NCBI GenBank assembly: GCA_945890485.1
Contig: CAMDCN010000010.1
Location: 186,001 to 250,000, forward strand
DNA length: 64,000 nt
Direction of reading: 5' to 3'
Origin: Candidatus Sulfopaludibacter sp. SbA3
GTDB taxonomy: Bacteria > Acidobacteriota > Terriglobia > Bryobacterales > Bryobacteraceae
This document shows, piece by piece, positions 45,284 through 64,000 of the stretch. The stretch's first letter is position 1. Every line of letters begins with the position of its first letter. Under the pieces are notes generated by a model. It did no database searches and was not told where the DNA came from. It was given only the letters and a program-made list of their open reading frames with translations. A program made the translations under genes and the position numbers.

Positions 45284-45306
45284 GGTATCATAGAGATTGC
45301 TTCTGA

Positions 45307-45381
<75 letters not shown>

Positions 45382-45529
45382 TCTTTTCAACAACTTGGGA
45401 ACATTCCTAGGAACCCTCGTTACTGCGATTACTGCTTTTTCTCTTCCCTGTCCTCTTTTGGCCGTTTAGACCCCTCACATTTGCCATAGTTTTGGAGCAC
45501 GGCGGAACTTGCACGCGCCCCGGAATCGT

Positions 45530-46630: not shown

Positions 46631-46683
46631 AGATTGTTCCTCTTCTTGCGTCCATGGCGGAGAATCCTGACATGCCTCTGAGG

Positions 46684-46890
46684 CTAGCACCTCTCTTTGT
46701 TCGCCTCCAACCACTGGTCCAGCCACTCCCGGCGGACCAGTTTCCTTCGGCCCATCGAGATGTGGCTGAGCCGGGGTATCCCGGGGATCTTCCCGTTGAT
46801 TACGTTGGCGACGTGCGTCTTCGAACATCGGAGGAGGGACGCCACGTCGCGGATGGTGAGTACCGCTTGAGGCTCTGGCGGGTTTTGCAT
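46684..46890 (-). CDS. Excisionase-like helix-turn-helix protein
   Basis: 68 residues with a MerR/AlpA-like winged helix: 'VLTIRDVASLLRCSKTHVANVINGKIPGIPRLSHISMGRRKLVRREWLDQWLEA'. Small proteins of this type beside an integrase usually act as recombination directionality factors. It lies 53 bases before the integrase start and 9 bases after traB, apparently in the same transcript. Confidence 0.78.
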   Translation of the reverse strand: MQNPPEPQAVLTIRDVASLLRCSKTHVANVINGKIPGIPRLSHISMGRRKLVRREWLDQWLEANKERC

Positions 46891-46899
46891 TTGTGCACC

Positions 46900-50945: not shown

Positions 50946-52343
50946 TCAGCGCGCTAGCGCGTGGGACCGTTGCCGGTCCTGGTTCGGTCTGAGTTGGGCG
51001 ACTTGGTTGGAGTAGGCGACGAGCACGTTTTGCGCCCGATTGGCTGGACCGGGCAGCAGATGCTTTTCGTGCGCCACGGCGCTTTTGGCGCTGAGCCGTT
51101 GGATGATGTGGTGGTCCGTCTCGCCAATCAGTTCGCCGCGGTACTTGCCGGAGCCGGTGTCGGCTGTGTAGGTGCGGGCCTGGTCGCCCATGATCTTGCG
51201 GGTGAGCGCTTCGGCATCGGCGAAAGATTCCTTGATGGCTTCGTCGCCGGGTGGACGGCGGCCGTCGACCTCGCCGTCGAGAATCTTCTCGGCTTGGAGC
51301 TTGGCCATGCCTCGCGAGGCTACCGGTTCGCGGCGTTCGGTGGCGGTCTCTTTCTCTGTGATGGCAACGGCGGCGTTGCCGCGTTCGAAGGCAGCTACGT
51401 GCTCGGATGTTTCGGTTCGGAGCTGTTTCCCCCGCTCGAGATCTAGCAGGTAATCCGCGGCGCGGTGAGCATCTTTGGCGGCGCGGAAGATTTCATTCTT
51501 GTCCTCGCTGAGCGCTTTGATCCAGGACTGGACGTAGGCTGCGTGCTGCTCGGGGTTGTGCGGGATGCCGCGCTCGGCGGTGAGGAAGACGCTGGTCAGT
51601 TCGGCGCGGAGTTCCTCCTTGGCGTAGTTGGGATCGCCGAAACGGTAGCTTTCGTTGAGGGTTTGGCGATTCAGGCGGTCGGGATGGCCGCTCCAGTGGG
51701 CGAGTTCGTGGAGGGCGGTTCCGTAGTAGTCGGCGGCGGTCTTGAAGGCGGCGCTTGGGGGGAGATGGATGTTGTCGGTAGATCGGCTGTAGAAGGCTCG
51801 GTCGTTCTGGTCGTGGATGATTTTCGCTCCGGAGTTGTGGAGGATCGATTCGCCGGTCTCGACGACCTCCCATTCAGTGCGCTGCTTGGGTACGTATGGG
51901 GTGATGCCATCGATTTGGTTGGCGTTGAAGACCGTAAAGACTCGGCGGAGTGGACCTCGGTAGTCGCCGCTTTTGGCTTCGGCTTCCGGACGTTCTGCGG
52001 GGGCGTCGCCCCTCTTGCCCTCTTCGCCAAATTGCCAGAACTCGATTTGAGTTCCCTTCTCGCCGGCGCGAACTTGCCAGCCGTTGGCGGCGGCCTGCTT
52101 GTAGGTCAGCCAACGTGGATCGTCGAAGCCCTTTTGCGTTCCGACGGCCATCAGGTGCAAGGCATTGCCGCCGCGGTAGTTCTTCTCGGTGGTTGGGTTG
52201 ACGGGAAGTTGGAGCGAACCTGGCTCCCAGGGCTTTTGCCAGGGCGCGGTCCCCTTCTCCAACATTTCGATGATTTGATCGGTGACTTCTTTGCGGAAGT
52301 CGCGTTTTGCTGGGGCTTCGTTCTGCGTGGAGTCATCGGCCAC
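50946..52343 (-). CDS. ArdC-like antirestriction protein (ssDNA-binding domain plus zincin)
   Basis: 465 residues from GTG 52343, which is preceded by a good ribosome site (AAGGA). An N-terminal ssDNA-binding domain ('EVTDQIIEMLEKGTAPWQKPWEPG', 'NYRGGNALHLM', 'GWQVRAGEKGTQIEFWQF') is followed by a metallopeptidase-like domain with HELAH at about 212-216. The C-terminal third is unassigned. ArdC-type proteins protect incoming DNA from restriction; TraC1-like primases share the N-terminal domain. It is near the front of the left operon, right for early expression in a recipient. Confidence 0.88.
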   Translation of the reverse strand: MADDSTQNEAPAKRDFRKEVTDQIIEMLEKGTAPWQKPWEPGSLQLPVNPTTEKNYRGGNALHLMAVGTQKGFDDPRWLTYKQAAANGWQVRAGEKGTQIEFWQFGEEGKRGDAPAERPEAEAKSGDYRGPLRRVFTVFNANQIDGITPYVPKQRTEWEVVETGESILHNSGAKIIHDQNDRAFYSRSTDNIHLPPSAAFKTAADYYGTALHELAHWSGHPDRLNRQTLNESYRFGDPNYAKEELRAELTSVFLTAERGIPHNPEQHAAYVQSWIKALSEDKNEIFRAAKDAHRAADYLLDLERGKQLRTETSEHVAAFERGNAAVAITEKETATERREPVASRGMAKLQAEKILDGEVDGRRPPGDEAIKESFADAEALTRKIMGDQARTYTADTGSGKYRGELIGETDHHIIQRLSAKSAVAHEKHLLPGPANRAQNVLVAYSNQVAQLRPNQDRQRSHALAR

Positions 52344-52346
52344 GGG

Positions 52347-52478
52347 TCACATCCTTTCGTCGAAGTCGGGTTCTGGTTGTTCGTCTTCGAAGCCGGAGCC
52401 GAATAGCTCCTGGGTACCGTTGTCTTGGCGTTGCTCGGGTAATGGATCAACGGCTGGCTGTTTTGTTGTCTCTTGCAT
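52347..52478 (-). CDS. 43-residue acidic peptide at the head of the ardC operon
   Basis: A short frame begins 'MQETTKQPAVDPLPEQRQDN' and ends 'FEDEQPEPDFDERM'. Its stop lies four bases before the ardC GTG, and the ardC ribosome-binding site is inside its last codons, so translation of the two is probably coupled. It is the first frame after the predicted promoter/operator. Highly acidic and disordered-looking. It could be a small protein (DNA mimic-like charge) or just a leader. Confidence 0.5.
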   Translation of the reverse strand: MQETTKQPAVDPLPEQRQDNGTQELFGSGFEDEQPEPDFDERM

Positions 52479-52484
52479 ATGCTG

Positions 52485-52541
52485 TCTAGCATGTACAGGC
52501 TAGCACGAGGTTAGTATGGCTGCAGCTTGCGCTCTTGTCAA
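52485..52541 (-). promoter_or_regulatory. Promoter and GCTAGC operator of the ardC-to-int operon
   Basis: Read on the minus strand, TTGACA (52536-52541), a 17-base spacer and CATACT (52513-52518) form a good sigma-70 promoter. Just downstream, 52485-52504 holds two CTAGC centres 14 bases apart sharing a TGTACA core. The same arrangement recurs at 60977-60996. The position at the start of transcription fits a repressor site. Confidence 0.65.
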
Positions 52542-52990
52542 GATGACATTGGCGACGGTGCATACCAGGCGGGATCGGCTTTGGGGGCGAGGTACGAGAA
52601 CGTTGTCGGCAACACCTTCCGCGGATAGCGGGAAGGGGGAAAAGCAGTCCATTAGCGGGGATGAAGCGACAAACCTCAGTTGCCAACGATTCCGACTGAA
52701 CGCCTGCCAATGGTCAGAATTGAACTTCACGGACGATTAGAGTCGTTTCACCTCCCGGACAGTGGTAAAGGCTTGAACCGATGCGCACTCAGTAGACTCC
52801 CTCGATCCCGCCTCGGCGGGTATTCAGAATGGCAAGGTCGATATCGGTTGGGAAATGCCCGCTCAATGGTGCCGCGTGCAGCAGGTCCGTCGACAACTTC
52901 CAGATCGCCGACCAGCTGGACACGATTCGTAAGCGCTGCGCCGTTTAGCGGGAGTTATTTCCAATTACACTAAAGCGACGGGCCCTTGCG
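52542..52990. other. Gap without a recognisable gene
   Basis: About 450 bases between the ardC promoter and the small plus-strand gene at 52991. Short open frames exist on both strands (for example 52680-52973) but none has a ribosome site, family motif or convincing composition. The stretch is less GC-rich than its surroundings and may be remnants of decayed cargo. Confidence 0.4.
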
Positions 52991-53395
52991 ATGACGCGAC
53001 TACTGGACAAACTGAAATCTTGGTGGGCATCCCGGAGACCGCAGGACCTCTCCAAGCGTTTGCCCATCGAGTGGGATGACAATGTGGTTCGGGTAAAGAT
53101 GATGGATTCGCTCTCCAAGGACTGGAATCAGGAGTTCTTCTGGGGCGCAGTGACGAGGGTATGCTTCAGCGACGGGGGCATATCGATGTCGGACATGGTG
53201 TTTCTTGACGTTCAAGGACGAGAGAAGCCCGCTGTTGTACCAACTGAAGCGCGGGGCGGACCAGAATTCATGGCTGAGCTCCTTAGGCGAGGTCTTCTTC
53301 CGCAAGATTTATTCAAGAAAGCGGTCAGTTCATCGGACGGCGGCACCTATTGTTGGCCCCCAGACGAAGGCAAGCGCGACCTCCGCAACAGATAG
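52991..53395 (+). CDS. Hypothetical protein (134 aa), element cargo
   Basis: The frame reads like a soluble globular protein: 'WDDNVVRVKMMDSLSKDWNQEFFWGAVTRVCFSDGGISMSDMVFLDV' then 'EFMAELLRRGLLPQDLFKKAVSS'. The pattern of an aromatic-rich strand, 'D.vfLdv', and a C-terminal helix recalls small immunity-type proteins, but no named family can be claimed. It is alone on its strand between two minus-strand transfer operons, a usual place for cargo, and its base composition is less GC-rich than the tra genes. Confidence 0.55.
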   Translation: MTRLLDKLKSWWASRRPQDLSKRLPIEWDDNVVRVKMMDSLSKDWNQEFFWGAVTRVCFSDGGISMSDMVFLDVQGREKPAVVPTEARGGPEFMAELLRRGLLPQDLFKKAVSSSDGGTYCWPPDEGKRDLRNR

Positions 53396-53595
53396 ATCGC
53401 GCAAAGTCGCGCAGTGTTGAGCTATTCATCCCAGGTCACGCGCGATCTGGAAGTTGGCGGGTACCAAGTCGTGTAGTGGGAAGCTGAAGTTCTGAACGGA
53501 TCCTCCGGCATTCTGAAGTTGAACGGAAACGGCCTTTGGGTGAAATTCATCTATTACGGTCTAAAGTGAACGACCCCTAACTTGCATAAAGGTGT

Positions 53596-54582
53596 TCAAC
53601 GACGGGATGCCGCGGTAGTGTATTGGGCGTCTCGTTGGTAGCCGCGGTGAGATTCCGACTTGTAGGCTAGGCTGCGTTGGGGAGCACTCTGAAGCTGGAG
53701 GCAGCGAAGTGTCTGGTGAAAATCTACTGACACTGACCATCGGTTCTGTGAACGCGGTGCCGCGAGGTCCAGTTTCGCCAAGAAGTGGAGGCGCGCGGCT
53801 AGGTGATGAGCGGGAAGTTGGCGGAGGCCAGATCTGGTAGTCTGTTGGAGTTCCAGTTCGGCAGCCTCCCCGTTAGTCGGAATCATACGTTTTTGAATCT
53901 CACGGTCGAGGGAAGTCACGTGGAGAGCGTTGATTTCGCGGCGCGCTGTTTCGATGTCGTCGTTGATTGTGCGGAAGCCGAGTTGTTCGGTACAGAGGTC
54001 TTCGGCGTGGCTGCGAATGGTGTGTTTGATGACGTCGCGGGGGAGGCGGAGGTTGCCGGCGGGGGTGATGCCGCGGATGGCTACGTGGACGTGGGGATGG
54101 CCAGTGTTGAAGTGGGCGACGGCGACCCATTCGAGGTCGGCGTTTAGGTCTTGCGATAGGCGGGTTATCAGGTCGCGGGTGTGTTTCTTCAGGTCCAGGC
54201 GCTCGCCGAACTCCGGGGAGACGATCATCTTGAAGAGTCGTCGTTCGCCGGATCTCTGCCACCCGGCTAGCGTTGATGGGATCGCGATTTCGTCGCTGGT
54301 CATGTTGAAGCCGACGCCGTCGGCGTTGGCGCTCTCCCGCGCGATGTAGCGGCCGTGGGCGGCCCATTGGCCGCGGACGTGGTTCGGCGAATACGTTACG
54401 CGGATGGCGCAGCGCTGTTTGTAGGGCTTACGGGGACGGATGGCGGCCGGTGCGGAACTGCGGATGCTCGTCATCCGGGCGATGCGCATTAGGCCTTTAA
54501 AGGCGCTGGACCAGGATTTGCTCTCGTCGCGGACGAACTTCGGGCGCCGGGGGCGGAGTTTGATCTGCTCTTCGTCAGGCAT
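53596..54582 (-). CDS. VirD2-type relaxase, short at the C-terminus
   Basis: 328 residues. 'AIRVTYSPNHVRGQWAAHGRYIARESA' carries the probable strand-cleaving Tyr (about 79), and 'VAVAHFNTGHPHVHVAIRG' is the three-His metal motif (His 162, 164 and 166 region). After about 240, 'LRQLPAHHLAARLHFLAKLDLAA' and 'WSVSVDFHQTLRCLQ' match the start of the DUF3363 part of this relaxase family, but the protein then ends, where relatives go on for hundreds of residues. It may be a natural short form or a truncation. The first 8 bases overlap the accessory gene. Confidence 0.82.
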   Translation of the reverse strand: MPDEEQIKLRPRRPKFVRDESKSWSSAFKGLMRIARMTSIRSSAPAAIRPRKPYKQRCAIRVTYSPNHVRGQWAAHGRYIARESANADGVGFNMTSDEIAIPSTLAGWQRSGERRLFKMIVSPEFGERLDLKKHTRDLITRLSQDLNADLEWVAVAHFNTGHPHVHVAIRGITPAGNLRLPRDVIKHTIRSHAEDLCTEQLGFRTINDDIETARREINALHVTSLDREIQKRMIPTNGEAAELELQQTTRSGLRQLPAHHLAARLHFLAKLDLAAPRSQNRWSVSVDFHQTLRCLQLQSAPQRSLAYKSESHRGYQRDAQYTTAASRR

Positions 54583-54997
54583 TGGGGTCTCCTTTCAGAA
54601 CGTCGAGGAGGGCGGAGCGGGCGTCGCCGGTCATGTTTTGGGCTACGGAGAGCATGAATCGCTCGTAGCGGAGTTTGGCTCGGCGCTTGGTCGCGTCGAG
54701 CACTTCGGCCTGTGGCTCTGGGGTGCAGGTCAGATAGAGGCGGACCAGGCTGTCGGTTAGGGCGAAGAGGGCCTGGTTGGCGTTGTGGAGCCGGCGCATC
54801 TCTTTCGCCACGCGGTCGATGCTGCTGGCGACGGCGGTTTCCAGTTGATCGTGTTGCTGGGCGTTCCGGGTGTCCTCGTCGAGAAGGGCGCGGAAGTAGG
54901 CAGAGATCGAATCGTAGCCACGGGCTTGGGCGGCCTTGCGGGCGGCGGCGAGATGGTCGGGGCGGATCTGCAGTTCGAAACGCTGCGTCTTCGGCAT
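54575..54997 (-). CDS. Ribbon-helix-helix relaxosome accessory protein (MobC/TraJ role)
   Basis: 140 residues from ATG 54997. 'TQRFELQIRPDHLAAARKAAQARGYDSISAYFRALLDED' is a ribbon-helix-helix DNA-binding motif; a long helical tail follows. Small RHH proteins directly before the relaxase bind oriT and load the relaxase. It is divergent from traK across the presumed oriT. Confidence 0.75.
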   Translation of the reverse strand: MPKTQRFELQIRPDHLAAARKAAQARGYDSISAYFRALLDEDTRNAQQHDQLETAVASSIDRVAKEMRRLHNANQALFALTDSLVRLYLTCTPEPQAEVLDATKRRAKLRYERFMLSVAQNMTGDARSALLDVLKGDPNA

Positions 54998-55013
54998 ACG
55001 GGTACTTCCCGGG

Positions 55014-55069
55014 TAGCAGGCTAGCCTGCACCGTATGGGTATAGTACGGCAAACATGTGAGATAGGCAA
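55014..55069 (-). promoter_or_regulatory. Promoter and GCTAGC operator of the relaxase operon
   Basis: On the minus strand, TTGCCT (55064-55069), 17 bases and TACTAT (55041-55046) form a promoter. Directly downstream, 55016-55029 is a perfect 14-base palindrome GCAGGCTAGCCTGC, the most symmetric example of the element's shared operator motif. Confidence 0.65.
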
Positions 55070-55200
55070 GAAAAACCGCCACGCGACCCGGATTCCCCTT
55101 TATGTTCCACTATCACCTGTTTTGCCGGATTTTCAGGGGTTGGGAGCGGACGGGTTGGAAGTTCTTGGAATTCGTTAGAAGAACTTGGAATTTCTTAGAA
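55070..55200. other. Probable oriT region with 20-base direct repeats
   Basis: This gap lies exactly between the relaxase/accessory operon and traKLM, where IncP plasmids have oriT. 55161-55180 and 55181-55200 are tandem 20-base units agreeing at 16 of 20 positions (shared core CTTGGAATT...TTAGAA). They may be binding sites for TraK or the accessory protein. A nick site could not be identified with confidence. Confidence 0.5.
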
Positions 55201-55222
55201 CCTGTACAGGCTAGCTTGTAAT
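55201..55222 (+). promoter_or_regulatory. GCTAGC operator upstream of traKLM
   Basis: 55206-55221 reads TACAGGCTAGCTTGTA, a 16-base palindrome with one mismatched pair, overlapping the perfect 10-mer CCTGTACAGG (55201-55210). A weak promoter (TTAGAA, 16 bases, TGTAAT) would place the operator in the spacer. It precedes traK by about 45 bases. Confidence 0.55.
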
Positions 55223-55264
55223 TGTTTGGAATCTGCTGTAAATGTTTAGACAGACGTGTCGCCG

Positions 55265-55642
55265 ATGCCGAAGACTGACGAATTGCCGCGATTGGCTGAA
55301 TTGGCCGCCGAGGTCCCTGCGAGGCGGGTGGGGTTGATCCGCCATTTGTGGCCGTCGATCCGGGCTTGTCTCGATGCGGGGCATTCGGTTCGGGCGATAC
55401 AGGCTCGGTTGCAGGCGGATGGCGTCGCGATCCCGTACTCGACGCTGTGTTGGGCGATTGCGAACTTGCGGAAGTCGGGGACGGCGAATGAGAGATCCGC
55501 GCCGCCGAAGGCTGGGGAAAAGATGACGAACGGGCCGGCGGGGAGTGATCCGCTGGGCAATTTGCATCGTGCCGCGAGGAACCGGCCGGGTTTCGACTAT
55601 AGCGGGACGATGTCGGACGAGGAATTGTTTGGGAAGAAATGA
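55265..55642 (+). CDS. traK: TraK-like oriT-binding protein
   Basis: 125 residues from ATG 55265 (GTG 55256 is an alternative). 'GLIRHLWPSIRACLDAGHSVRAIQARLQADGVAIPYSTLCWAIANLRKSG' is the helix-turn-helix-like core of IncP TraK proteins, followed by a Pro/Gly-rich tail. Position next to oriT and before traL and traM supports the call. It would bend or wrap oriT DNA. The stop overlaps an ATG that is not the preferred traL start. Confidence 0.65.
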   Translation: MPKTDELPRLAELAAEVPARRVGLIRHLWPSIRACLDAGHSVRAIQARLQADGVAIPYSTLCWAIANLRKSGTANERSAPPKAGEKMTNGPAGSDPLGNLHRAARNRPGFDYSGTMSDEELFGKK

Positions 55643-55653
55643 GGAGACGAAAG

Positions 55654-56412
55654 ATGGCTGGAGCGAAAGCGAATGGGGTTGAGTTTGACGGTGAGATCCA
55701 CTTCTCGCTGCAGGGGAAGGGGGGAGTCGGCAAGAGTTTGGCCGCCTCGTTGTTGGCGCAGTACTTCCGGCACCGGCGGAGCATTCCGGTGCGGTGCATT
55801 GATACGGACCCGGTGAATCAGACGTTCTCCCAGTATCGGGAACTGGGGGCGGACCGGATGGAGTTGTTGCGGGATGGCTCGGTTGACCAGCGGGCGTTCG
55901 ATGGGTTGATGGAGAGCTTGTTGACGCAGCCGGGCACATTCATCGTGGACAACGGGGCTTCGACGTTCATTCCTCTGTGGAACTACATGCTAGAGAACAA
56001 TGCGATGGCGATGCTGAAGGAGTCGCGGCGGAAGCTGTATGTGCATTGCGTGATTACGGGTGGGCAGGCGCTGGCGGATACGTTGAGCGGGTTTGCCCGG
56101 CTGGCGCAGACGTCGGAGGATCAGAACATTGTGCTGTGGATCAATGAGTATTTTGGGCGGATTGAACGGGAGGGGCGGCAGTTGCATGAGATGCCGGTGT
56201 ATTTGGAGAACGCTGGGCGGGTGCTGGGGTCGGTGGTGATTCCGCGGCGGAATCAGGATACGTTTGGGCGGGACATGGAGGACGTGATCACGCGGAAGCT
56301 GACGCTGCAGGAGGCGATTGACTCGGCGGGGTTTTCGATCATGATGCGGCAACGATTGAAGGTGATGCAGCGGGAGTTGTTCGACCAGTTGGACGGGCTG
56401 TCGTTTCAATAG
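55654..56412 (+). CDS. traL: TraL-like ParA/MinD-family ATPase
   Basis: 252 residues from ATG 55654, chosen because a GAGGAG ribosome site precedes it. The deviant Walker A is GKGGVGKS (21-28), and 'CIDTDPVNQTFSQYRELGAD' and 'TFIVDNGASTFIPLWNYML' are Walker A'/B regions. The protein matches the TraL of IncP-like systems, an ATPase of uncertain role near the relaxosome. Confidence 0.82.
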   Translation: MAGAKANGVEFDGEIHFSLQGKGGVGKSLAASLLAQYFRHRRSIPVRCIDTDPVNQTFSQYRELGADRMELLRDGSVDQRAFDGLMESLLTQPGTFIVDNGASTFIPLWNYMLENNAMAMLKESRRKLYVHCVITGGQALADTLSGFARLAQTSEDQNIVLWINEYFGRIEREGRQLHEMPVYLENAGRVLGSVVIPRRNQDTFGRDMEDVITRKLTLQEAIDSAGFSIMMRQRLKVMQRELFDQLDGLSFQ

Positions 56413-56415
56413 GCC

Positions 56416-56733
56416 ATGGATATCAACCGATTGATGGCGGAGGCGGTGGCGCGGCATGGGGTGAAGCTGGACGCGCATGATCCGGCGATGGTGATTGTGA
56501 CGCTGAACCGGCTGATGTTGGAGGAGGCGGTTTGCGGGGTGGCCGATGAGATCCGTAAGGCGGCGAAGGAGTTTGATGCCGCGGGCGAGCGGATGCAGAA
56601 GGGGGTTGGGGTGGCGGTGGCTCGGGAGGTTGCGCGGGCGGGGAGCGGGGTGGCTTGGCCTTCTCGCATGCTGGGCTGGCGGTGGGTTGGGTTGGCGTTT
56701 TTGTTGGGATTTGTCGCTGGGAGGTTGGTATGA
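56416..56733 (+). CDS. traM: TraM-like conjugal transfer protein
   Basis: 105 residues. A helical N-terminal part ('MDINRLMAEAVARHGVKLDAHDPAMVIVTLNRLMLEEAV') is followed by a C-terminal membrane helix ('WVGLAFLLGFVAGRLV'), as in IncP TraM. It sits three bases after traL and its stop overlaps the next start (ATGA). Confidence 0.7.
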   Translation: MDINRLMAEAVARHGVKLDAHDPAMVIVTLNRLMLEEAVCGVADEIRKAAKEFDAAGERMQKGVGVAVAREVARAGSGVAWPSRMLGWRWVGLAFLLGFVAGRLV

Positions 56734-56888
56734 GATTTCGTGATTGGGTTTGTGTTTATTTGGGGATGGGTGAGTCGTTCACGGGGTGGGCGGTGTTGCT
56801 GTTTTACGGGGCGGCTTGGGTCGTTGGGGTGGTAGCGCTTGGGTTGGTGGCGGTGCTGGCATTAGCGATGGCGGTCCATCGGGGTTGA
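56730..56888 (+). CDS. 52-residue membrane peptide
   Basis: Starts at the ATG overlapping the traM stop. 'MRFRDWVCVYLGMGESFTG' is followed by one or two hydrophobic helices ('WAVLLFYGAAWVVGVVALGLVAVLALAMAV'). No family recognised. The coupling to traM argues that it is translated. Confidence 0.55.
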   Translation: MRFRDWVCVYLGMGESFTGWAVLLFYGAAWVVGVVALGLVAVLALAMAVHRG

Positions 56889-56922
56889 GGCGGAGTGGTT
56901 GCTCCGCCTCGTTCGGAAAGCC

Positions 56923-57354
56923 TTAGGCGACTTTCCGGCGGACGGATTCCGGCAGGGTTTCGAAGGGGATGGTCTTCGACGCGCGGACCATCTGGCTCCA
57001 GTGGATGACCTTTTGTGTGGGAAGGCCGAGGAGGGTGGCGAGTTCGTCGGGCGTTGGATTTTCGGACAGCGTTGGGATGGCGTCGCAACGCTTCTGGAAT
57101 TGGCGGACCGCGCGGGGAAGCGGGTCGAGTTGGCGGAGATAGTCGAGCATGGCTCCGCGGATGCGGTGCTCGGCGAGGGTCCTCAGCTTGAGGTTTCGGG
57201 CGGGGTCGAAGCGGTCGACGGCGCCGATGAGGCCGATGGTGCCGGCGGAGATGAGGTCGTCGAGTTCGACCTGCGGGCAGCGCCGATGGAGTTTGCGGGC
57301 GAGCAGTTCCACTTGGGGAAGATGATCGAGGATGAGTTGGTCGCGGTTGGCCAT
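56923..57354 (-). CDS. Sigma-70 family factor with regions 2 and 3 only
   Basis: 143 residues. Region 2 is clear: 'VELDDLISAGTIGLIGAVDRFDPARNLKLRTLAEHRIRGAMLDYLRQLDPLPRAVR', closest to the FliA/WhiG/SigF group. Region 3 follows ('PTPDELATLLGLPTQKVIHWSQM'). Then the protein ends; region 4, which reads the -35 box, is absent, while relatives are 230-260 residues. No continuation is seen in another frame downstream. It lies 15 bases after the second ssb and is convergent with the traM block. Confidence 0.82.
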   Translation of the reverse strand: MANRDQLILDHLPQVELLARKLHRRCPQVELDDLISAGTIGLIGAVDRFDPARNLKLRTLAEHRIRGAMLDYLRQLDPLPRAVRQFQKRCDAIPTLSENPTPDELATLLGLPTQKVIHWSQMVRASKTIPFETLPESVRRKVA

Positions 57355-57369
57355 GGCAGGATCGGCCGC

Positions 57370-57714
57370 TTACGCGGCCACCTCCTGCTTGGGGGAGCGG
57401 TCCAGGCGGTTGATGCGCTGGACGCGGATCTCGGTAACGTGCTTGGTGGAGCCGTCCTTGGCGGTGTACTGGCGGGTGTTGAGTTCGCCGGTGATGTTGA
57501 GATGGGCGCCCTTGGTGAGGGTGGCGGCGTATTCAGCTAGGCGGCCGAAGACGACGAGGCGGTGCCAGGTGGTTTGCGATTGGCGTTCGCCGGATTCGCG
57601 GTCTTTCCAGGTGCGCTGGGTGGCCAGCGAGAGGGTTGTGAGAGTGGAGTCGTTGCGGGTGGTGCGGGTTTCGGCGTCGCTGCCGAGGTAACCAATTAGA
57701 GTCACGTTGTTCAT
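57370..57714 (-). CDS. ssb: Single-stranded DNA-binding protein (second copy)
   Basis: 114 residues from ATG 57714 with a GGAG ribosome site. 'MNNVTLIGYLGSDAETRTT', 'TTWHRLVVFGRLAEYAATLTKGAHLNITGELNTRQY' and 'VTEIRVQRINRL' are the OB-fold strands. There is no acidic tail, so it binds ssDNA but probably lacks the protein-recruiting tip. It differs clearly from the 48.4 kb copy. Confidence 0.9.
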   Translation of the reverse strand: MNNVTLIGYLGSDAETRTTRNDSTLTTLSLATQRTWKDRESGERQSQTTWHRLVVFGRLAEYAATLTKGAHLNITGELNTRQYTAKDGSTKHVTEIRVQRINRLDRSPKQEVAA

Positions 57715-58205
57715 TGCTATCTCCTTCTGCCTCCGTCTCTTGATCGGGGCACCCAAAAGCGAGCGGGGGCGCTCCCAAGGGAGGGGGAGTGCTTTGTTGG
57801 GGGGACCGGGCGGATTCCGGTGAGTGGTAGCGAACGGACCGGGAGGCGGAATCCGGCTGGGGGAGCCGAAAAAGCAGAACGGAGCCGAGCGCCGGGCGCG
57901 GCTAGGCGATAGCCGTTAAGCGAAGCGGTGCCCGATCAGGGGCGGGGGCGAGGAGGCAATCGGACTTGTGACCTAAGTCCTTGGAGAACTGCCGGAACTA
58001 GATGTCTCCAGCTACATGAGCCGCGGCGGCCCGGAACGGAGAGGCTGAACGCGCATCGATAACCTCGCTCCTCATTGGCAAATGGTGTGCTGCGCTTCTG
58101 ATACCAGGGGAGAGGCGAAAACCGAGACTCTCCGATGAGATCTCCAGGTCCCATGTGCCATGTACACGCAATTGATCGATACAATTGGTGGAATTCGAAA
58201 CCCCC
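57715..58205. other. GC-rich structured gap without a gene
   Basis: About 490 bases. The left half is G-rich with inverted repeats: CGGATTCCG (57811-57819) pairs with CGGAATCCG (57847-57855), and CGGCTA/TAGCCG (57899-57915) makes a 6-base-pair hairpin with a 5-base loop. The right half is of lower GC and resembles the cargo that follows. It may hold an untranslated leader for ssb, a small RNA or a replication signal; no promoter stands out. Confidence 0.4.
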
Positions 58206-59072
58206 ATGATTCAGCTGCCCCCTCAACCGCCGGTAGGGTCACAACCTCATCCATTCGCTGCATTAATGCAACGCCTGGGCGAGACCTTTACCGTGAGCGA
58301 TGTTATGGTTCCGCTGGCCGAAATTGCATCGGTAAATCCGTCAGATCGGTATGCAGTTGATCGCATTGTGAGAGAGAAGAAGTACTCGGTCGTTCCCGCG
58401 TCCGTGGATTCACTACACTTCCCTTATGTGTTTTGGACCGAGCATCACGCGAATAGCGATAGAGCGATCACGGATCGGCGGGATACGAATCTGTCCGATC
58501 ACATTCCGGACTCGACGCCGCTTGCCGAGGCATTCTATCTCTTCGACTCGCGCGAGTGGTACTTTGCAATACGAGCAAATCGCGTTTCCGGGCTCATTAC
58601 TTATTGGGCGTTTAACAGCCGTGAGTTTCGGGTTCAGCTCTATGCGGGATTGAGCAGAGTGGAAGAGCTCTCTCGGGATCTTCTCGCTGGAGATAAGTGT
58701 GGCGTGGATAGTGAACACGGGTTACGCCTTTCGCCCGCAGTTATCCAGAAGGCACGCGAGCGCTTCGAATTCGTCCGACAGGAAATGGGCGGTAATCGCT
58801 TTGTCGATGAATTGCAGTTCCACCACGTTCATGAGGCGCTACGGAAGCACCAACCGTGGTTTGAGTTTCTGCAGGCGCGGCTTGCCCCCACAATCAGCAA
58901 AGCGGACTACGAGCGTGAGTTTAATTTCACCGAATTTCGTGACGCCGTCATGCACGGCAGGACATTGTTTCCTACTTACAGGGCATTCAAGTCTGGGACT
59001 GGCACGGTACGGAGGATAGGCGAGCTGATCGATCACCTCCATGCCTACATCGCTATTCGGAAGGCAGCATGA
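58206..59072 (+). CDS. CBS-domain-pair protein with unknown C-terminal domain (cargo)
   Basis: 288 residues from ATG 58206. About 29-85 and 97-150 look like paired CBS motifs ('FTVSDVMVPLAEIASVNPSDRYAVDRIVREKKYSVVP' and 'LSDHIPDSTPLAEAFYLFDSREWYFAIRANRVSGLITYWAFNS'). CBS pairs bind adenine nucleotides. The C-terminal half ('RLSPAVIQKARERFEFVRQE', 'FNFTEFRDAVMHGRTLFPTYRAF', 'IGELIDHLHAYI') is helical and unassigned; its 'FRDAVMHGR' is like the RxxxxH or N-H-R patterns of HEPN-type helical domains. Base use is unlike the tra genes, suggesting separate acquisition. Confidence 0.6.
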   Translation: MIQLPPQPPVGSQPHPFAALMQRLGETFTVSDVMVPLAEIASVNPSDRYAVDRIVREKKYSVVPASVDSLHFPYVFWTEHHANSDRAITDRRDTNLSDHIPDSTPLAEAFYLFDSREWYFAIRANRVSGLITYWAFNSREFRVQLYAGLSRVEELSRDLLAGDKCGVDSEHGLRLSPAVIQKARERFEFVRQEMGGNRFVDELQFHHVHEALRKHQPWFEFLQARLAPTISKADYEREFNFTEFRDAVMHGRTLFPTYRAFKSGTGTVRRIGELIDHLHAYIAIRKAA

Positions 59073-59179
59073 CTTCAGCTAGGTGTGCCCGGCCCTGCGC
59101 CGAAACACCTAGGGCGAGGGGCTAACCTGATGGCGGTGAGGACCAAGAACGGTCTCAAACGTAAGCCCACTCTCTGCGG

Positions 59180-59956
59180 TTATGCCACCAATTCCAAAAG
59201 ATCTCCGATGGCCCGAATTCCGGTGTCGGATACTTCTAGAACCTCGGTTGTGAGTGGATGCGGCGCAGAACTGAATTCCTCAATTACCGTCGCTGCAACC
59301 TGACGGTCGATACCTGCCGTCTGCGCCGACCACATGAAGAGAAAGTCTCGATCCGGGATAGCTGCGTGGATTGGCCAGCCGATCTGCGCCTCCACCGCCA
59401 ATCTCAGGTTCGGCGCAAACAGCAAGGGAGCCTTAAATGGAAGTGAAGTTTCAAAGTATCCGAGCCGCCCGGACTCGAGTTCCTGGAACTTTAGCGTCGA
59501 CTCTTGAATGGCCGCGGCTAGATTCGCGTTGGCTGCCTCCGTGATGTCTCCAATCATCACGCCCCAGTCCGACAGCATATCTGCATCTATCCATGTAAGC
59601 GTTCCGGCAGAATCGTCGAGCAGGGCGGGCACACGATCAACCCGGTCCGTCACAGAAATTCTGAACTCCGATGGTTCAGCGAAGTCATTTAGCTCGAAGG
59701 AGTGCAAAACCTGACCTCGCGCAGTCTCCCATTGAGGACATTCCACTTGCGGTATGGATAGAACCAGATCAGCAAATCGGTCGATCCCCGCCCCGTCACC
59801 GTCTGCGATGTATTGGCGCTCTAGATTCTCCAGCGAGACCAGCAGTGTAGATCCATTCGAGTGAATTTCAAACCGGTTTGAGGTCTGGTCGTACGCGAAC
59901 GTCACGCCGCGTCGGCGTAACACAACTTGAAAAAGCTCCGCAACGGACGTTTTCAT
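59180..59956 (-). CDS. DUF1444-like protein (cargo)
   Basis: 258 residues from ATG 59956 (TTG 59986 also in frame). 'GVTFAYDQTSNRFEIHSNGSTLLVSLENLERQY', 'LSDWGVMIGDITEAANANLAAAI' and 'LRLAVEAQIGWPIHAAIPDRDFLFMW' follow the pattern of DUF1444/YtpQ proteins (sequence: early beta strands, 'wgls.eel...A..NL', 'vvaiPdRd.Ll'). The function of that family is unknown. It is convergent with the CBS gene and lies apart from the primase. Confidence 0.55.
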   Translation of the reverse strand: MKTSVAELFQVVLRRRGVTFAYDQTSNRFEIHSNGSTLLVSLENLERQYIADGDGAGIDRFADLVLSIPQVECPQWETARGQVLHSFELNDFAEPSEFRISVTDRVDRVPALLDDSAGTLTWIDADMLSDWGVMIGDITEAANANLAAAIQESTLKFQELESGRLGYFETSLPFKAPLLFAPNLRLAVEAQIGWPIHAAIPDRDFLFMWSAQTAGIDRQVAATVIEEFSSAPHPLTTEVLEVSDTGIRAIGDLLELVA

Positions 59957-60061
59957 CAAGGCTAGTATTTCATGGATCTCGGGCAAGGTGGCCCCGTTGG
60001 ACCAGAAGGCGATGCTACTGAGCCGATGCGCGTGATCGTCATCAAGCCGGGCGGTCGTCCA

Positions 60062-60928
60062 TCAGCGTCTACTGATTATTCTCTCGGCTTTCGCAATTGT
60101 CCTGGTGGTGTAGTCATTTTGCCGACTTTCAATGCCCTTCTTGGAGAGATCGCGGGACTTGATCGCCGTGGCGATGGCGTCAATGGTACCTCCGCGGGCT
60201 AAGGCATAGATGGAATAGGCAAGATCAATTCGGTTCCCGTCACCGCCATACTCCGACCTCGCTCGAAAGTCCTCGATCGTGAGCAACGGACCACAAAGGC
60301 GTGAATCGTTGGGTGCTGAGACGCCCGCTGCAGATTTCACGTCGATTAGCGCAGCAACGATGCCGAGCAATTCCGTCCTTCGAGCAAATTGCTCACCCAG
60401 AGAGCGTTCCGTCAGATGCACGTATGGGAAAGTTCCTCTTTCATCACGATATTTCTCCTTACGGTTTGTGAAGCCGGCCAACCTTCCGAAGTGGCGCCAG
60501 TCCGCGGCGCCTTTGTCGCCGCCGAACTTCTCAGCGAGGGCGCGGGCGGCGAGTGTGGAAAGACGCTGCGGAAGGACCTGTCCATGGTTGAGCCAGGCCT
60601 GAAAATTACCGGGTGAGGTTTCGACAACGAGCGCCGGCGTGTAGCCTTCGGTCTTCATTCGTTCGATGGCGTCGGCAGTGAGGTCGTCGACCATGCTGAG
60701 GTGGTGCTCGCCATTGGGGCGGATGTAGATGTTGCGGCCTTGGCTGTTTTGGTATCGGAGCCAGGGAACAGACTTCAGCAGAGTGGCGCGGTCCCAGGTG
60801 CGGGGGAGCATTTCGGGCTCGCGGGGGTCGGAGTCAGGGGTGTGTGGTTTGAAGAGGCCGATCTCGTAGACTTCGCAGCCCATGGCGGCAATTTGCTGTT
60901 CGACGGCGATTAGGGTGCGGTTCTTCAT
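60062..60928 (-). CDS. RepB-like DNA primase
   Basis: 288 residues. 'IYIRPNGEHHLSMVDDLTADAIERMKTEGYTPALVVETSPGNFQAWLNH' and 'GDKGAADWRHFGRLAGFTNRKEKY' are the core motifs of the RepB-like/relaxase-associated primase domain found on mobile elements. It would prime second-strand synthesis after transfer. It shares its upstream region with trbB, read in the other direction. The last 80 residues are helical and of unknown role. Confidence 0.82.
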   Translation of the reverse strand: MKNRTLIAVEQQIAAMGCEVYEIGLFKPHTPDSDPREPEMLPRTWDRATLLKSVPWLRYQNSQGRNIYIRPNGEHHLSMVDDLTADAIERMKTEGYTPALVVETSPGNFQAWLNHGQVLPQRLSTLAARALAEKFGGDKGAADWRHFGRLAGFTNRKEKYRDERGTFPYVHLTERSLGEQFARRTELLGIVAALIDVKSAAGVSAPNDSRLCGPLLTIEDFRARSEYGGDGNRIDLAYSIYALARGGTIDAIATAIKSRDLSKKGIESRQNDYTTRTIAKAERIISRR

Positions 60929-60937
60929 CTTTTCTCC

Positions 60938-61010
60938 TTGACGCCCGATGCAAGTTCGGGAATAATCGTCTGCATAGCTAGCTTGTACAGGCTGGCTGTG
61001 CGCTTGTCAA
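60938..61010. promoter_or_regulatory. Divergent primase/trb promoters with a double GCTAGC operator
   Basis: Plus strand, toward trbB: TTGACG (60938-60943), 17 bases, AATAAT (60961-60966). Minus strand, toward the primase: TTGACA (61005-61010), 17 bases, TACAAG (60982-60987). Between them, GCTAGC (60977-60982) and GCTGGC (60991-60996), 14 bases apart around TTGTACAG, repeat the layout seen before ardC. The minus promoter also shares the TTGACAAG start with the ardC promoter. Confidence 0.7.
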
Positions 61011-61026
61011 GGCTGGAGTTTTGAAA

Positions 61027-62070
61027 ATGTTGGTTCCCACCACTTCTCCGCTTCCGATCAACGACCGGGGACAATCTGCCCGGCTGGACGCGAAGCTGCG
61101 CCGAGAGTTGGGGGAGACGGTCCTGCGCGCATTGGCTGATGAGCGGACGGAAGACTTGGTCCTGAACCCGGACTCCCGGCTCTGGGTGAAGCGGCAGGGT
61201 GAGGGGTTCCAATGCATCGGGGAAATGCCCGCCGCACAGGCGCAGACGGCGATGGGAACTATAGCGGCGCAGAAGGGAACGGTGATCAACCACGACCGTC
61301 CCATCTTGGAAACGGAGCTGCCAATCGATGGCAGCCGCTTTGAAGGACTCATGCCGCCGGTGGTTAGCCGGCCGATCTTTGCAATCCGTCAACGGCCCAG
61401 GCGGATCTTCACTCTCGATGACTATGAGCAGGCGGGAATACTCAGTGATTCGCAGGACGCTCTGAATAAGCGTCGGTGGCGGACTGGGTTTGCGGATCTG
61501 GTTCGGGGACTATCCCACGCCGAAGTGATCCGCGCCGCCATTGCGGAGAAAAAGAACATTCTCATTGTCGGCTCCACCGGCTCCGGGAAGACGACGCTGG
61601 TGAACGCGATTCTGGAGACGCTGGCGAAGCTGGCTCCGGCGGATCGGGTGATCTCGATTGAAGACACGATCGAGCTCCAATGCCCGGTCGAGAACTACGT
61701 AGACCTGAGGGCGGTTGGTAACGTGACGATGCTCGATTGCCTGCGGGCCTGTATGCGGCTTAAGCCGACGCGTATTGTGGTTGGCGAAGTCCGCGGGGCG
61801 GAAGCCCACGTGATGCTGAAGGCGTGGAACACGGGGCACCCCGGCGGTGCAGCGACGGTTCATGCGAACGACGCGCTTAGCGGCCTGGTGCGTCTTGAAA
61901 GTCTTGTGGCGGAGGCTACGGCCGCGCCGATGCAGTCGTTGATTGCGGAGGCGGTGGACCTGGTGGTCTTCATTGACGAGGAAGCAGACCTGGCGGCTGG
62001 CCGCAAGGTTCGGCAACTGCTGCTGGTGAACGGGTACGAGAACGGACAGTACTCGGTGGAATTTCTCTAA
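61027..62070 (+). CDS. trbB: TrbB-type conjugative transfer ATPase (VirB11 family)
   Basis: 347 residues from ATG 61027. Walker A 'GSTGSGKTT' (about 182-190), 'VISIEDTIELQ' (Asp box), 'MRLKPTRIVVGEVRGAEAHVMLKAWNTGHPGGAATVHAND' (Walker B and His box). It is the hexameric motor of the mating-pair apparatus and the first gene of the trb operon. Confidence 0.94.
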   Translation: MLVPTTSPLPINDRGQSARLDAKLRRELGETVLRALADERTEDLVLNPDSRLWVKRQGEGFQCIGEMPAAQAQTAMGTIAAQKGTVINHDRPILETELPIDGSRFEGLMPPVVSRPIFAIRQRPRRIFTLDDYEQAGILSDSQDALNKRRWRTGFADLVRGLSHAEVIRAAIAEKKNILIVGSTGSGKTTLVNAILETLAKLAPADRVISIEDTIELQCPVENYVDLRAVGNVTMLDCLRACMRLKPTRIVVGEVRGAEAHVMLKAWNTGHPGGAATVHANDALSGLVRLESLVAEATAAPMQSLIAEAVDLVVFIDEEADLAAGRKVRQLLLVNGYENGQYSVEFL

Positions 62071-62091
62071 ACCAAGGGAAGGAAGGATGCG

Positions 62092-62424
62092 ATGAGAATC
62101 TCTGATCGTGGTTGGACAAGGACTTGGCTATTGATGGGCCTGCTGTTTGTCGCGACGCAACTCGCTTGGGCGGGCGGCGGTGGCGGTGGTGGCTTGCCAT
62201 GGGAGACGCCGCTGAACCGGGTGGCGCAGTCGATGACTGGCCCGGTGGCGCTTTCGATTTCCTTGATCGCGCTGATGGTGGCCGGCGGGACGCTGGTGTT
62301 TGGCGGGGAGCTGAGCGAATTCGCTCGGCGGTCCTGCGTGGCGGTGCTGGCGATTGCGTTCCTGGTGCTGGGTGCGGGCTTTATGACGACGCTGTTCGGT
62401 GTTGGCGGCGCGGTGGTCCTGTAG
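62092..62424 (+). CDS. trbC: TrbC/VirB2-type pilin precursor
   Basis: 110 residues with a long signal ('WTRTWLLMGLLFVATQLAWAGGG') and two membrane helices ('VALSISLIALMVAGGTLVF', 'CVAVLAIAFLVLGAGFMTTLF'), as in cyclic-type conjugative pilins. A GGAAGG ribosome site precedes it. TraF at 47.9 kb is the probable processing peptidase. Confidence 0.9.
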   Translation: MRISDRGWTRTWLLMGLLFVATQLAWAGGGGGGGLPWETPLNRVAQSMTGPVALSISLIALMVAGGTLVFGGELSEFARRSCVAVLAIAFLVLGAGFMTTLFGVGGAVVL

Positions 62425-62431
62425 GAGTTCC

Positions 62432-62743
62432 ATGGAGAAGCCGCGCGAGATCGTGATCCATCAATCCGCCAACCGCCCGCACTTGCTGATGGGCGGGGAT
62501 CGGGAGCTCGTTCTGTTTGCGGCTTTGCTTTCGGCGATGTTGGTCTTTGCGTTGGTGACATGGTGGGGCGTCGTGGCGGGGATCACGCTATGGATTCTTG
62601 CTGTGGCGGTGCTTTCCCGGATGGGGCGTTCGGACCCGCTGCTACGGCAGGTTTACCTACGCCATATCCAGTACCGGCCGTTCTACTTGGCGAAGGGATC
62701 GCTGGGCCGGGAGACGGCCGCGATTCCGAGGCAGTGGAGGTAA
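62432..62743 (+). CDS. trbD: TrbD/VirB3-type protein
   Basis: 103 residues from ATG 62432. 'IVIHQSANRPHLLMGGDRELVLFAALLSAMLVFALVTWWGVVAGITLWILAVAVLSRMGRSDPLLRQVYLRHIQYRPFY' shows the TrbD pattern: 'GGdRel', paired membrane helices and an 'R.DP' segment. It belongs to the mating-pair complex, next to TrbE. Confidence 0.9.
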   Translation: MEKPREIVIHQSANRPHLLMGGDRELVLFAALLSAMLVFALVTWWGVVAGITLWILAVAVLSRMGRSDPLLRQVYLRHIQYRPFYLAKGSLGRETAAIPRQWR

Positions 62744-62745
62744 GG

Positions 62746-64000
62746 ATGAAACTCGCTGAACATCGCTCGCGCGTGCAGGGGCTGGCGGATCTGCTGCTCT
62801 ACGACTCGATGGTGGATGACGGGGTGTTGCTGCTGCAGGATGGGGCGATGCTGGCGGCTTGGTCGTTCCGGGGGCCGGACATGGCGTCGGCGACGCATTC
62901 GGAGATGGGGGCGTTGAGTGCGCGGTTGAATTCTGTTCTGCGGCTGGGCAGTGGATGGATGATTCAGTGCGATGCGATTCGGTCGATGGCGCCGGAGTAT
63001 CCGCCGGTGGGTGCGTTTCCGGACGCTGTGACCAAGCTGATTGATGATGAGCGGCGCCAGCAGTTCACGTTCGAGGGTTCGCACTATGAGAGCGACTACT
63101 ATGTCGCGCTGACCTACCTTCCGCCGGAGGAGAGCGAGGAGCGGGTGAAGGGGTGGATGTTCGATGGGCGGAAGGAGTGGAAGTCGAGCGCGTTGCGGGC
63201 GCTGGACTACTTCAAGGGGCGGGTGAGCGGTTTTGACGACATCTTTGGTTCGTTGTTTCAGGCGAAGCGATTGGCCGGTGGGCGGAATGGCGATGAGCTG
63301 TTGCGCTATGTGCACCGGTGCGTTGCGGCGGTGGACCATCCGATTCGGCTTCCGCAGGTGCCGAGCTATCTAAACGATGTGCTTTCGTCGCGGGATTTTG
63401 TGGGTGGGATGAATCCGCAGATTGGGCGGAAACACATCCGGGTGATCGCGATTGACGGCTTTCCGCGGGTGAGCTATCCCGGGATTCTGGGTGCGCTGGA
63501 TGCGCTGGCGATTGAGTATCGTTGGCACACGCGCGCCATTCTGTTGGAGCCTGAGGAGGCGCGCGGGTTGCTGGATCGCACGCGGCGGAAGTGGCGGGCG
63601 AAGATTCGCGGGTGGAAGGATCAGTTGCTGCGGACGGAGACGGGACCGGTGAACCTGTTCGCGCAGGAGATGGCCGTGGACGCCGAGGAAGCAATGGGCG
63701 TGGCTAGTAGCGGCGATGTGCAGTTCTGCGTGTACAACACGGTGATCCTCTGTTTTCATGAGCGGGAAGAGTCGGTGGAAGAGTCCGCGGCGCTGGTGGT
63801 GAAGACGGTGCAGAACCTGGGGTTCTCGTGCCGCGTGGAGAGCGTGAATGCTGTGGAAGCCTGGCGGGGGAGTTTGCCGGGCGATGGATATCGGAACGTG
63901 CGGCGGGTGATTCTGCATACGCTGAATCTGGCGGACATGATGCCGATCACGGCCGTGTGGGCGGGGGAGCGGAAGAACCCGTCGCCGCTGATGCCGGCGG
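62746..64000 (+). CDS. trbE: TrbE/VirB4-type ATPase, N-terminal part (3' end outside window)
   Basis: The frame starts two bases after trbD with an overlapping ribosome site (TAAGG) and stays open to the window edge, about 418 codons. The N-terminal 'LADLLLYDSMVDDGVLLLQDGAMLAAWSFRGPDMASATHSE' is the CagE/TrbE/VirB domain. 'IRVIAIDGFPRVSYPGILGALDALAIEYRWHTRAILLEPEEA' and 'LGFSCRVESVNAVEAWRGSLPGDGYRNVRR' continue it. The Walker motifs lie further right, outside the window. Confidence 0.93.
   Translation, partial: MKLAEHRSRVQGLADLLLYDSMVDDGVLLLQDGAMLAAWSFRGPDMASATHSEMGALSARLNSVLRLGSGWMIQCDAIRSMAPEYPPVGAFPDAVTKLIDDERRQQFTFEGSHYESDYYVALTYLPPEESEERVKGWMFDGRKEWKSSALRALDYFKGRVSGFDDIFGSLFQAKRLAGGRNGDELLRYVHRCVAAVDHPIRLPQVPSYLNDVLSSRDFVGGMNPQIGRKHIRVIAIDGFPRVSYPGILGALDALAIEYRWHTRAILLEPEEARGLLDRTRRKWRAKIRGWKDQLLRTETGPVNLFAQEMAVDAEEAMGVASSGDVQFCVYNTVILCFHEREESVEESAALVVKTVQNLGFSCRVESVNAVEAWRGSLPGDGYRNVRRVILHTLNLADMMPITAVWAGERKNPSPLMPA

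Follow-up and report, generated by a model that had tools for sequence, protein, structure and literature searches.

ArtA of the Staphylococcus aureus plasmid pSK41 is described as a ribbon-helix-helix master repressor of conjugation genes that acts at several sites, its own promoter included (PMC6540685). A comparable arrangement is described for RP4, in which TrbA acts on traJp, traKp and trbBp, providing a precedent for both a pulse of expression and a set of jointly controlled promoters (PMC7314908). With ArtA and TrbA as precedents, a master repressor is not a novel idea, and nor is the ribbon-helix-helix fold. Here we analyse a stretch of 64,000 nucleotides from the soil acidobacterium Candidatus Sulfopaludibacter sp. 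SbA3 (contig CAMDCN010000010.1, positions 186,001 to 250,000; the window), in which operator-like palindromes stand at the promoters of conjugative transfer genes. We consider it likely that these sites are the operators of a single master repressor, RhhB, encoded by the element itself, a putative integrative and conjugative element (ICE) with RP4-like tra and trb genes.

ArtA forms dimers to which each chain (54 residues, 3gxq) contributes one unit, and it acts at six sites of a plasmid from a Gram-positive host, whereas RhhB would carry two units in each chain, recognise a different operator and be encoded after an RP4-like trb run. The likeness to TrbA lies in the rhhA-relaxase, traK and trbB promoters, which occupy the same positions as those controlled in RP4; unlike in RP4, where trbA precedes trbB, rhhB follows trbI and encodes a predicted ribbon-helix-helix protein, and the ardC and primase promoters share the site. 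The original prediction, made from the sequence of the window, had named the KorA/TrbA circuits of IncP plasmids as the known analogy while setting the KorA site apart. The operator indeed differs from that of KorA, GTTTAGCTAAAC, and the promoter set is alike; the circuit itself does not appear to be of the TrbA/KorA type, as the candidate is a ribbon-helix-helix protein and no relative of TrbA, KorA or KorB was found among the 20 proteins, part of the open reading frames (ORFs), that were scanned with Pfam.

The sites, with the promoters and genes beside them, are as follows (tra names were given by position and analogy).

52480-52509, no strand: doubled operator of the ardC-traG-ssb-traF-int run, with CTAG cores at 52486-52489 and 52500-52503 and the dyad TGTACA at 52492-52497
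52513-52541, minus strand: ardC promoter TTGACA-17-CATACT; the operator begins 3 bp past its -10 box
50946-52478, minus strand: first genes of the ardC run, a small ORF (52151-52478) and ArdC (50946-52343), from Pfam
55015-55030, no strand: rhhA-relaxase operator, a perfect 14-mer at 55016-55029, 18 bp 5' of the rhhA ATG
55041-55069, minus strand: rhhA promoter TTGCCT-17-TACTAT, under the cut-off of the consensus scan
53596-54997, minus strand: rhhA (54575-54997) and relaxase (53596-54582), from Pfam and further searches
55205-55220, no strand: operator of the traK genes, a 16/16 match, on the -35 box
55216-55244, plus strand: traK promoter TTGTAA-17-TAAATG, under the same cut-off
55256-56733, plus strand: traK-like gene (55256-55642), ParA-like traL (55639-56412) and traM-like gene (56416-56733), from Pfam
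60972-61001, no strand: doubled operator in the gap between primase and trbB, with two divergent promoters
60938-60966, plus strand: trb promoter TTGACG-17-AATAAT
60982-61010, minus strand: primase promoter TTGACA-17-TACAAG, its -10 box within the operator; under the same cut-off
61021-64000, plus strand: first part of the trb run, from trbB (61021-62070) on, truncated at the window end; it continues outside to trbI and then rhhB

All four sites lie where they had been predicted, the traK site being refined to 55205-55220 (TACAGGCTAGCTTGTA). As claimed, 55016-55029 is a perfect palindrome of 14 bases (GCAGGCTAGCCTGC), and the CTAG/CTGG centres of the two doubled sites are exactly 14 bp apart; CATAGCTAGCTTGTACATGCTGGCTATG, at trb in the related element G684, exemplifies the doubled form. 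The two-fold axis of both doubled operators (about 52480-52509 and 60972-61001) is the TGTACA between the halves. The operator can therefore be read as a 7-bp alternation of CTAG and TGTAC, an array that the traK site presents in its other phase (CTTGTACAAGCTAGCTTGTA in G684); the rhhA operator has a weaker second half within CGTATGGGTATA, and GCTAGC-Y-TGTAC, or a near form of it, is the unit common to most sites. Beyond ArdC, the first run continues with TraG, SSB, a TraF-like peptidase and the integrase and, judging by gene orientation, would form a single operon.

The promoters with 17-bp spacers were also borne out, five of them at the four sites, with a refinement of their placement relative to the operators: at ardC, rhhA and trb the operator comes just past the -10 box, at primase it sits on the -10 box and at traK on the -35 box. 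A consensus promoter scan of the window returned 7 pairs against 3.0 expected, and the ardC and trb promoters are the only two of the five that pass its cut-off. From such positions, binding by RhhB would be expected to repress. The opposite outcome, that RhhB binds the sites and activates the transfer promoters, has a parallel in TprA, a ribbon-helix-helix protein with an Arc-like domain that is presented as the main activator of ICE PAPI-1 of P. aeruginosa (PMC8565334). TprA resembles RhhB as a ribbon-helix-helix master regulator of an ICE and differs in being an activator, which acts with NdpA2 against silencing by MvaT in the account given there (PMC8565334). Activation is improbable in our view, given that operators that follow the -10 box and cover the likely start or lie past it (ardC, rhhA and trb), or that sit on the -10 and -35 boxes (primase and traK) are placed so as to block polymerase.

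Within the window, TACARGCTAGCYTGTA with up to three mismatches has three matches against 0.04 expected in shuffled sequences, one of them (55398) inside traK, and CTAGCNTGTACANGCTNGC has six matches at three places against 0.19 expected. When the organism's own genome was scanned (7.13 Mb, 97% complete), the doubled pattern without mismatches was found only at the two doubled sites, the 16-mer without mismatches only at 55205, and exact TACAGGCTAGC at two places, both here. Exact matches are thus not as frequent elsewhere in the chromosome as in the element; equal frequency would have spoken against a regulon. With up to three mismatches the 16-mer occurs at 23 places in the genome, three of them here and one of these inside traK; with one mismatch TACAGGCTAGC has 29 further matches, four at these sites. 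That the palindromes are there by chance would suit the GCTAGC count, since 10 of the 14 occurrences in the window fall outside the four sites, and loose genome matches are no commoner than those of reversed controls. We nevertheless hold chance to be exceedingly improbable in view of the exact matches, their clustering and their conservation in relatives.

Two look-alikes deserve mention. One in the own genome with two mismatches, at C27:32032 (AACAGGCTAGCCAGTA), was set aside on the basis of 140 bp of its surroundings. The other, TACAGGCTCGGTTGCA at 55398-55413, lies inside traK, where G447a and G684 have a similar word (12/16); it is perhaps kept merely through the protein code.

To what extent the sites are shared was followed in related elements. 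A relaxase search gave matches in 25 of 399 genomes of the class and a family-wide RhhB search in 30 of 237, the own genome included in both; phylum-wide samples were poor (RhhA in 2 of 297 genomes, own included; RhhB in 1 of 396, the own only). A separate scan of named genomes yielded 21 loci, mostly from metagenome-assembled genomes labelled Acidobacteria, Bryobacterales or Bryobacteraceae. No relatives of RhhA or TraK were found in the plasmid collection, and none of RhhB in viral contigs.

Within the reach of each contig, all eight elements with readable promoters and an RhhB at least 63% identical (G447a, G684, G418, G861a, G861b, G800, G681b and G631c) show this operator type at the corresponding promoters; G631s and G447b carry it too, on stretches that end before any rhhB. 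Counterparts of the doubled operator at 52480-52509 are kept 5' of the orthologous gene in G447a, G447b, G418 and G861b, and those of 60972-61001 in G684, G861a, G861b, G681b, G800, G631c, G447a and G418. A score of at least 13/16 is reached by 21 of 25 promoters in relatives (10 stretches, 7 genomes), against a frequency of 0.0066 for a random 110-bp window of the same elements, although these promoters are related and do not count as independent events. G418 retains the operator core between diverged flanks. Conservation at the same promoters supports the predicted regulon of transfer genes with a shared operator and contradicts chance palindromes.

The repressor was not evident in the window, and a small helix-turn-helix gene preceded by the same site had been expected to its right. 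A small candidate regulator gene does follow, with a conserved site in front; the site is weak, and the predicted fold is ribbon-helix-helix.

C10:256880-257269 (L021:6880-7269), plus strand: rhhB, 129 residues, protein P0001, the next gene after trbI, 6.9 kb beyond the right end of the window
C10:256835-256850 (L021:6835-6850): weak operator TACCGTAATGCCTGTA, 29 bp 5' of rhhB, 11/16

RhhB is most likely the missing regulator of the sites. In 17 of the 19 elements in which both genes were found, no more than about 210 bp separate rhhB from trbI, the exceptions being G870 (about 0.5 kb) and G418 (5.8 kb). The C-terminus of P0001 has Arc and RHH_1 matches in Pfam below the cut-off, and NCBIfam gave no match for this protein; across the family, RHH_1 matches 17 of 24 members at E <=0.1 (best 4.6e-05). 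An AlphaFold2 model (pLDDT 78, pTM 0.65) contains two beta-alpha-alpha units (E31-39 H40-49 H55-66 and E81-90 H91-104 H108-122). In Foldseek, ranks 1-9 are chains of the F relaxosome (probability 0.99-1.00, TM 0.48-0.54, E 0.011-0.060, 12-16% identity); single-chain Arc (rank 15) and Arc (rank 31) come further down. The matched chains would be TraY, judging by the train of three TraY described for that structure, where TraY is a monomer holding a whole ribbon-helix-helix dimer in one chain (PMC12117103). The predicted units, together with the RHH_1 matches of the family, place RhhB in the ribbon-helix-helix (MetJ/Arc/CopG) superfamily, and the model points to a TraY-type tandem in which two units per chain replace the dimer. 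TraY, the best fold match of the model, is like RhhB in this predicted single-chain form and differs in acting at oriT within the relaxosome, whereas the proposed sites of RhhB are five places over 18 kb; identity is as low as 12-16%. A literature search for autoregulation by TraY found no paper.

No TraY chain is among the 8 PDB sequences at E <=1 in the RhhB profile search, where the best match is ParG (E 0.0027). ParG as the best sequence match, with TraL being ParA-like, would also suit a role in which the sites form a distributed centromere and RhhB, as a ParG- or omega-like partition protein, works with TraL and controls promoters only secondarily. In RP4, KorB serves both in partition and as a repressor. 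Moreover, an intergenic stretch of 313 bp in the Acidisarcina plasmid pACPOL1, whose RhhB is a distant one (37.5%), contains eight GCTAGC, within or beside two 108-nt repeats that are 79% identical and hold the word GGCTAGCC[AG]CATAGC. That word has no TGTAC half, and rhhB does not adjoin traL. In the element studied here, by contrast, single or doubled sites are scattered across 8.5 kb, every one of them at a promoter; own-genome scans gave no cluster of perfect sites, and three GCTAGC within 350 bp occur only in G418 among the element stretches. A role chiefly in partition is on these grounds distinctly improbable.

The pACPOL1 array itself (L028:16933-17267, in a gene-free stretch about 2.7 kb from the distant rhhB) looks more like an iteron or a centromere than like promoters. 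In the 40-kb stretches taken from the two Acidisarcina plasmids with a distant RhhB (38%), the best match to the operator word of our element scores 12/16 in pACPOL1 and 13 in pACPOL3, which has two such matches, away from the mapped genes.

An operator at its own promoter is what an ArtA-kind repressor would have, and RhhB has a putative one in TACCGTAATGCCTGTA. Scores of at least 11/16 occur in about 4.7% of random 110-bp windows, so this site would not stand out alone; it is letter-identical in 8 of the 14 members that resemble ours in operator type (G000, G628, G800, G804, G681b, G684, G861a and G789), further members carrying looser versions. In G418, where rhhB is displaced, the gene is preceded by a doubled operator of its own (13/16), and G818 (RhhB 65%) has no recognisable site before rhhB (8/16). 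A lone rhhB (84%) was also seen in G447c (L085, G447:C3:2609045), in 40 kb otherwise free of mapped transfer genes, and its upstream site is a looser one (11/16); it is possibly a remnant able to repress incoming elements.

Elements in which RhhB is less than 50% identical lack the GCTAGC operator, which we call type I. One of them, G663, has a 13/16 match to the type I word in the primase-trbB gap, without a GCTAGC core. The palindrome of G861c, TACCRTCTAGAYGGTA, which defines a second type, has only three matches of at least 13/16 in 30 kb, located 5' of rhhB (16), of the gene in the traK position (15) and of trbB (13). Its rhhB site is repeated, in perfect form, in G783 and G681d, and 14/16 forms stand at the rhhB or rhhA-relaxase genes of G802, G684b and G746. 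A third type, ACACCGTACGGTGT, is found at rhhA and traK in G672. The presence of other palindromes at the transfer promoters of elements with a diverged RhhB indicates that the design is kept while the word changes. In the primase-trbB gap of G663 and G869 (L121, L132) we observed TACAGTCTTGACTGTA and GGTGATGTCAAGACATCACC, possibly a fourth type; the second strand of RhhB there reads [RK]DTT.R.

These types bear on the possibility that a host chromosomal regulator recognises the sites. Host proteins commonly control mobile elements, and no regulator is encoded inside the window; the perfect sites, however, are found nowhere else in the own genome, and the G861 elements are of two operator types, each with its own RhhB type. 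The coexistence of type I and type II elements in one genome makes a host regulator unlikely, and both points together render it very improbable. G861 holds three related conjugative elements in all (L113/L114, L115/L116 and L125/L126), two of type I and one of type II.

Among 19 genes compared, the widest joint margin between type I and other elements is that of RhhB (+14.1 identity points and +0.17 normalised bits), as against -1.3 points and +0.03 bits for RhhA and -1.6 and +0.05 for TraK; trbL separates them in identity only, and passes because the coverage rule dropped G861b. This comparison covered elements with a transfer promoter visible on the stretch and not broken up, which left out G447c, G628, G804, G789, G818, G775, G447b, G681c, G681d, G684b and pACPOL3. 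The ratio of the mean distance between types to the deep distance within type I is 2.05 (G672) and 2.60 (G861c) for RhhB, and 0.87-1.29 (12 genes, G672) and 0.97-1.52 (11 genes, G861c; TraK not comparable) for the others; of 13 genes, RhhB alone shows a divergence between operator types that is at least double that within a type. The second beta strand of RhhB reads RDTT[IV][ST] throughout the 15 members with an identity of 60% or more, PEVNMFM in the six members that belong to the second type and EETCLML in G672, while the first strand changes less between types. This pattern can be likened to that of the operator words, in which TAC/GTA and often CTAG stay and the middle bases change.

The same comparisons help to weigh whether RhhA, as a MobC/TraJ-like relaxosome auxiliary, or the TraK-like protein binds the sites and autoregulates, RhhB doing something else. 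RhhA is a MobC-like protein with a predicted single ribbon-helix-helix and a long helical C-terminus, encoded 18 bp from one site and adjoining oriT. It resembles MobC of the IncU plasmid RA3, a ribbon-helix-helix autorepressor of the mobC-relaxase operon beside oriT, which controls mobC-nic from a comparable place; the description of MobC in that source concerns an operator at its own promoter rather than a regulator of the whole transfer region (PMC4175270). Yet the beta-strand letters of RhhA vary under one operator (RFELQIR, QFNMVMD, NFSILFD, RLEVKLP), where those of RhhB are fixed; RhhA barely parts the operator types (between/within ratio 1.05 for G672 and 1.52 for G861c); and the sites also stand at trb, ardC and rhhB, beyond the RhhA and TraK genes. 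We therefore hold control by RhhA or TraK to be unlikely.

Our findings allow us to propose a model of the circuit centred on RhhB. The protein would be produced from the gene after trbI, fold as two ribbon-helix-helix units per chain like F TraY, and bind alternating CTAG and TGTAC half-elements. Once RhhB suffices, RNA polymerase would be blocked at the ardC-int, rhhA-relaxase, traKLM, primase and trb promoters, with weaker binding at its own. In a fresh recipient without RhhB, the transfer promoters would stay open for a time, giving a pulse of expression on entry, until RhhB made at the end of the trb genes closed the circuit by negative feedback. An extension of this model, which we put forward tentatively and with more doubt than belief, is that the two unequal strands of RhhB read unequal half-elements, strand 1 the conserved TAC/GTA and strand 2 the part that switches, and that related elements in one cell insulate their circuits by joint change of strand 2 and the five operators; the protein may also serve in the relaxosome or in partition.

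Besides the precedent of TprA and the pACPOL1 array, several observations weigh against the sites or against their control by RhhB as proposed. Loose matches are not enriched genome-wide, reversed controls being commoner than the real patterns (41+28 against 16+15 for TACAGGCTAGC, 48 against 23 per strand for the 16-mer, 22+15 against 16+15 for the doubled pattern), so that the case rests on exactness, clustering and conservation. Four of the 25 promoters in relatives score lower, namely trb of G447a and G418 (12) and rhhA of G684 and G418 (11), and that list holds a single rhhB promoter (G418); adding 12 further rhhB promoters from relatives brings the count to 21 of 37. Across the 14 type-I-like members, rhhB promoters score weakly (13 once, 12 twice, 11 nine times, 10 once and 8 once). 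A symmetrised matrix built from the 25 relative promoters speaks for the regulon, placing the four window promoters at ranks 1-4 in 93,125 bp, with ranks 6 and 7 falling to the second halves of the two doubled operators; this ranking is partly circular, as the training words were picked with a consensus drawn in part from the window. On the side of the protein, model confidence is limited (the pLDDT of 78 given above), and no Foldseek match of the model falls below E 0.001, so that the fold match rests on the probability of 0.99-1.00 and on topology. As for co-variation, the relaxase also parts the types in both measures, if barely (+1.6, +0.01), and for rhhA, traK and traL a gap appears in the bits alone (+0.02 to +0.05). 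A conflict between trees, with the operator following RhhB rather than the trb genes, was expected and not found: a tree of five trb proteins, made by a quick method, also groups type I as one clade with full support, so that topology does not separate operator type from shared descent. Resolution of the RhhB tree is poor, and the comparison of divergence rates given above is the weaker argument that stays.

In the open literature we found nothing on the RhhB family, its operator, a single-chain form in this role or a matched series of operators, nor a description of a conjugation control circuit in acidobacteria, subscription journals lying mostly outside the search. In this regard, our analysis names a likely protein and its sites for the control of conjugation in acidobacteria. 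The natural operator types with their matched RhhB variants, some of them in one genome, offer a set for studying how tandem ribbon-helix-helix proteins choose their DNA, and the same series may help in understanding how mobile elements keep their switches apart.

The neighbourhood of the rhhA and traK operators includes an oriT-like core.

55099-55112, plus strand: oriT-like core TTTATGTTCCACTA, between rhhA and traK

This core is probably the nic region; TATGTTCCACTA is exact in 20 of 30 relaxase loci, including loci with a different operator type. Adjoining the traK operator, at 55155-55201, are TTGGAA/TTAGAA direct repeats every 10-11 bp or so, which are perhaps sites of the TraK-like protein; other elements have other repeats there. 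At 328 residues the relaxase is short next to the open frames of about 460-490 seen in many of the more distant elements; the open frames of G447 (326) and G684 (331) are equally short, which suggests a trait of the clade and not a recent truncation. Farther left, the tyrosine integrase (45530-47176) adjoins a tRNA-Gly(CCC) gene (45307-45381). A search of the contig up to its end at 93,125 for exact copies of at least 14 bp from 45290-45520 found none, and the right end of the element was not found on it. A stretch matching the tRNA-Gly region lies beside the integrase of G418, and tRNA-Gly(CCC) is the probable attachment site.

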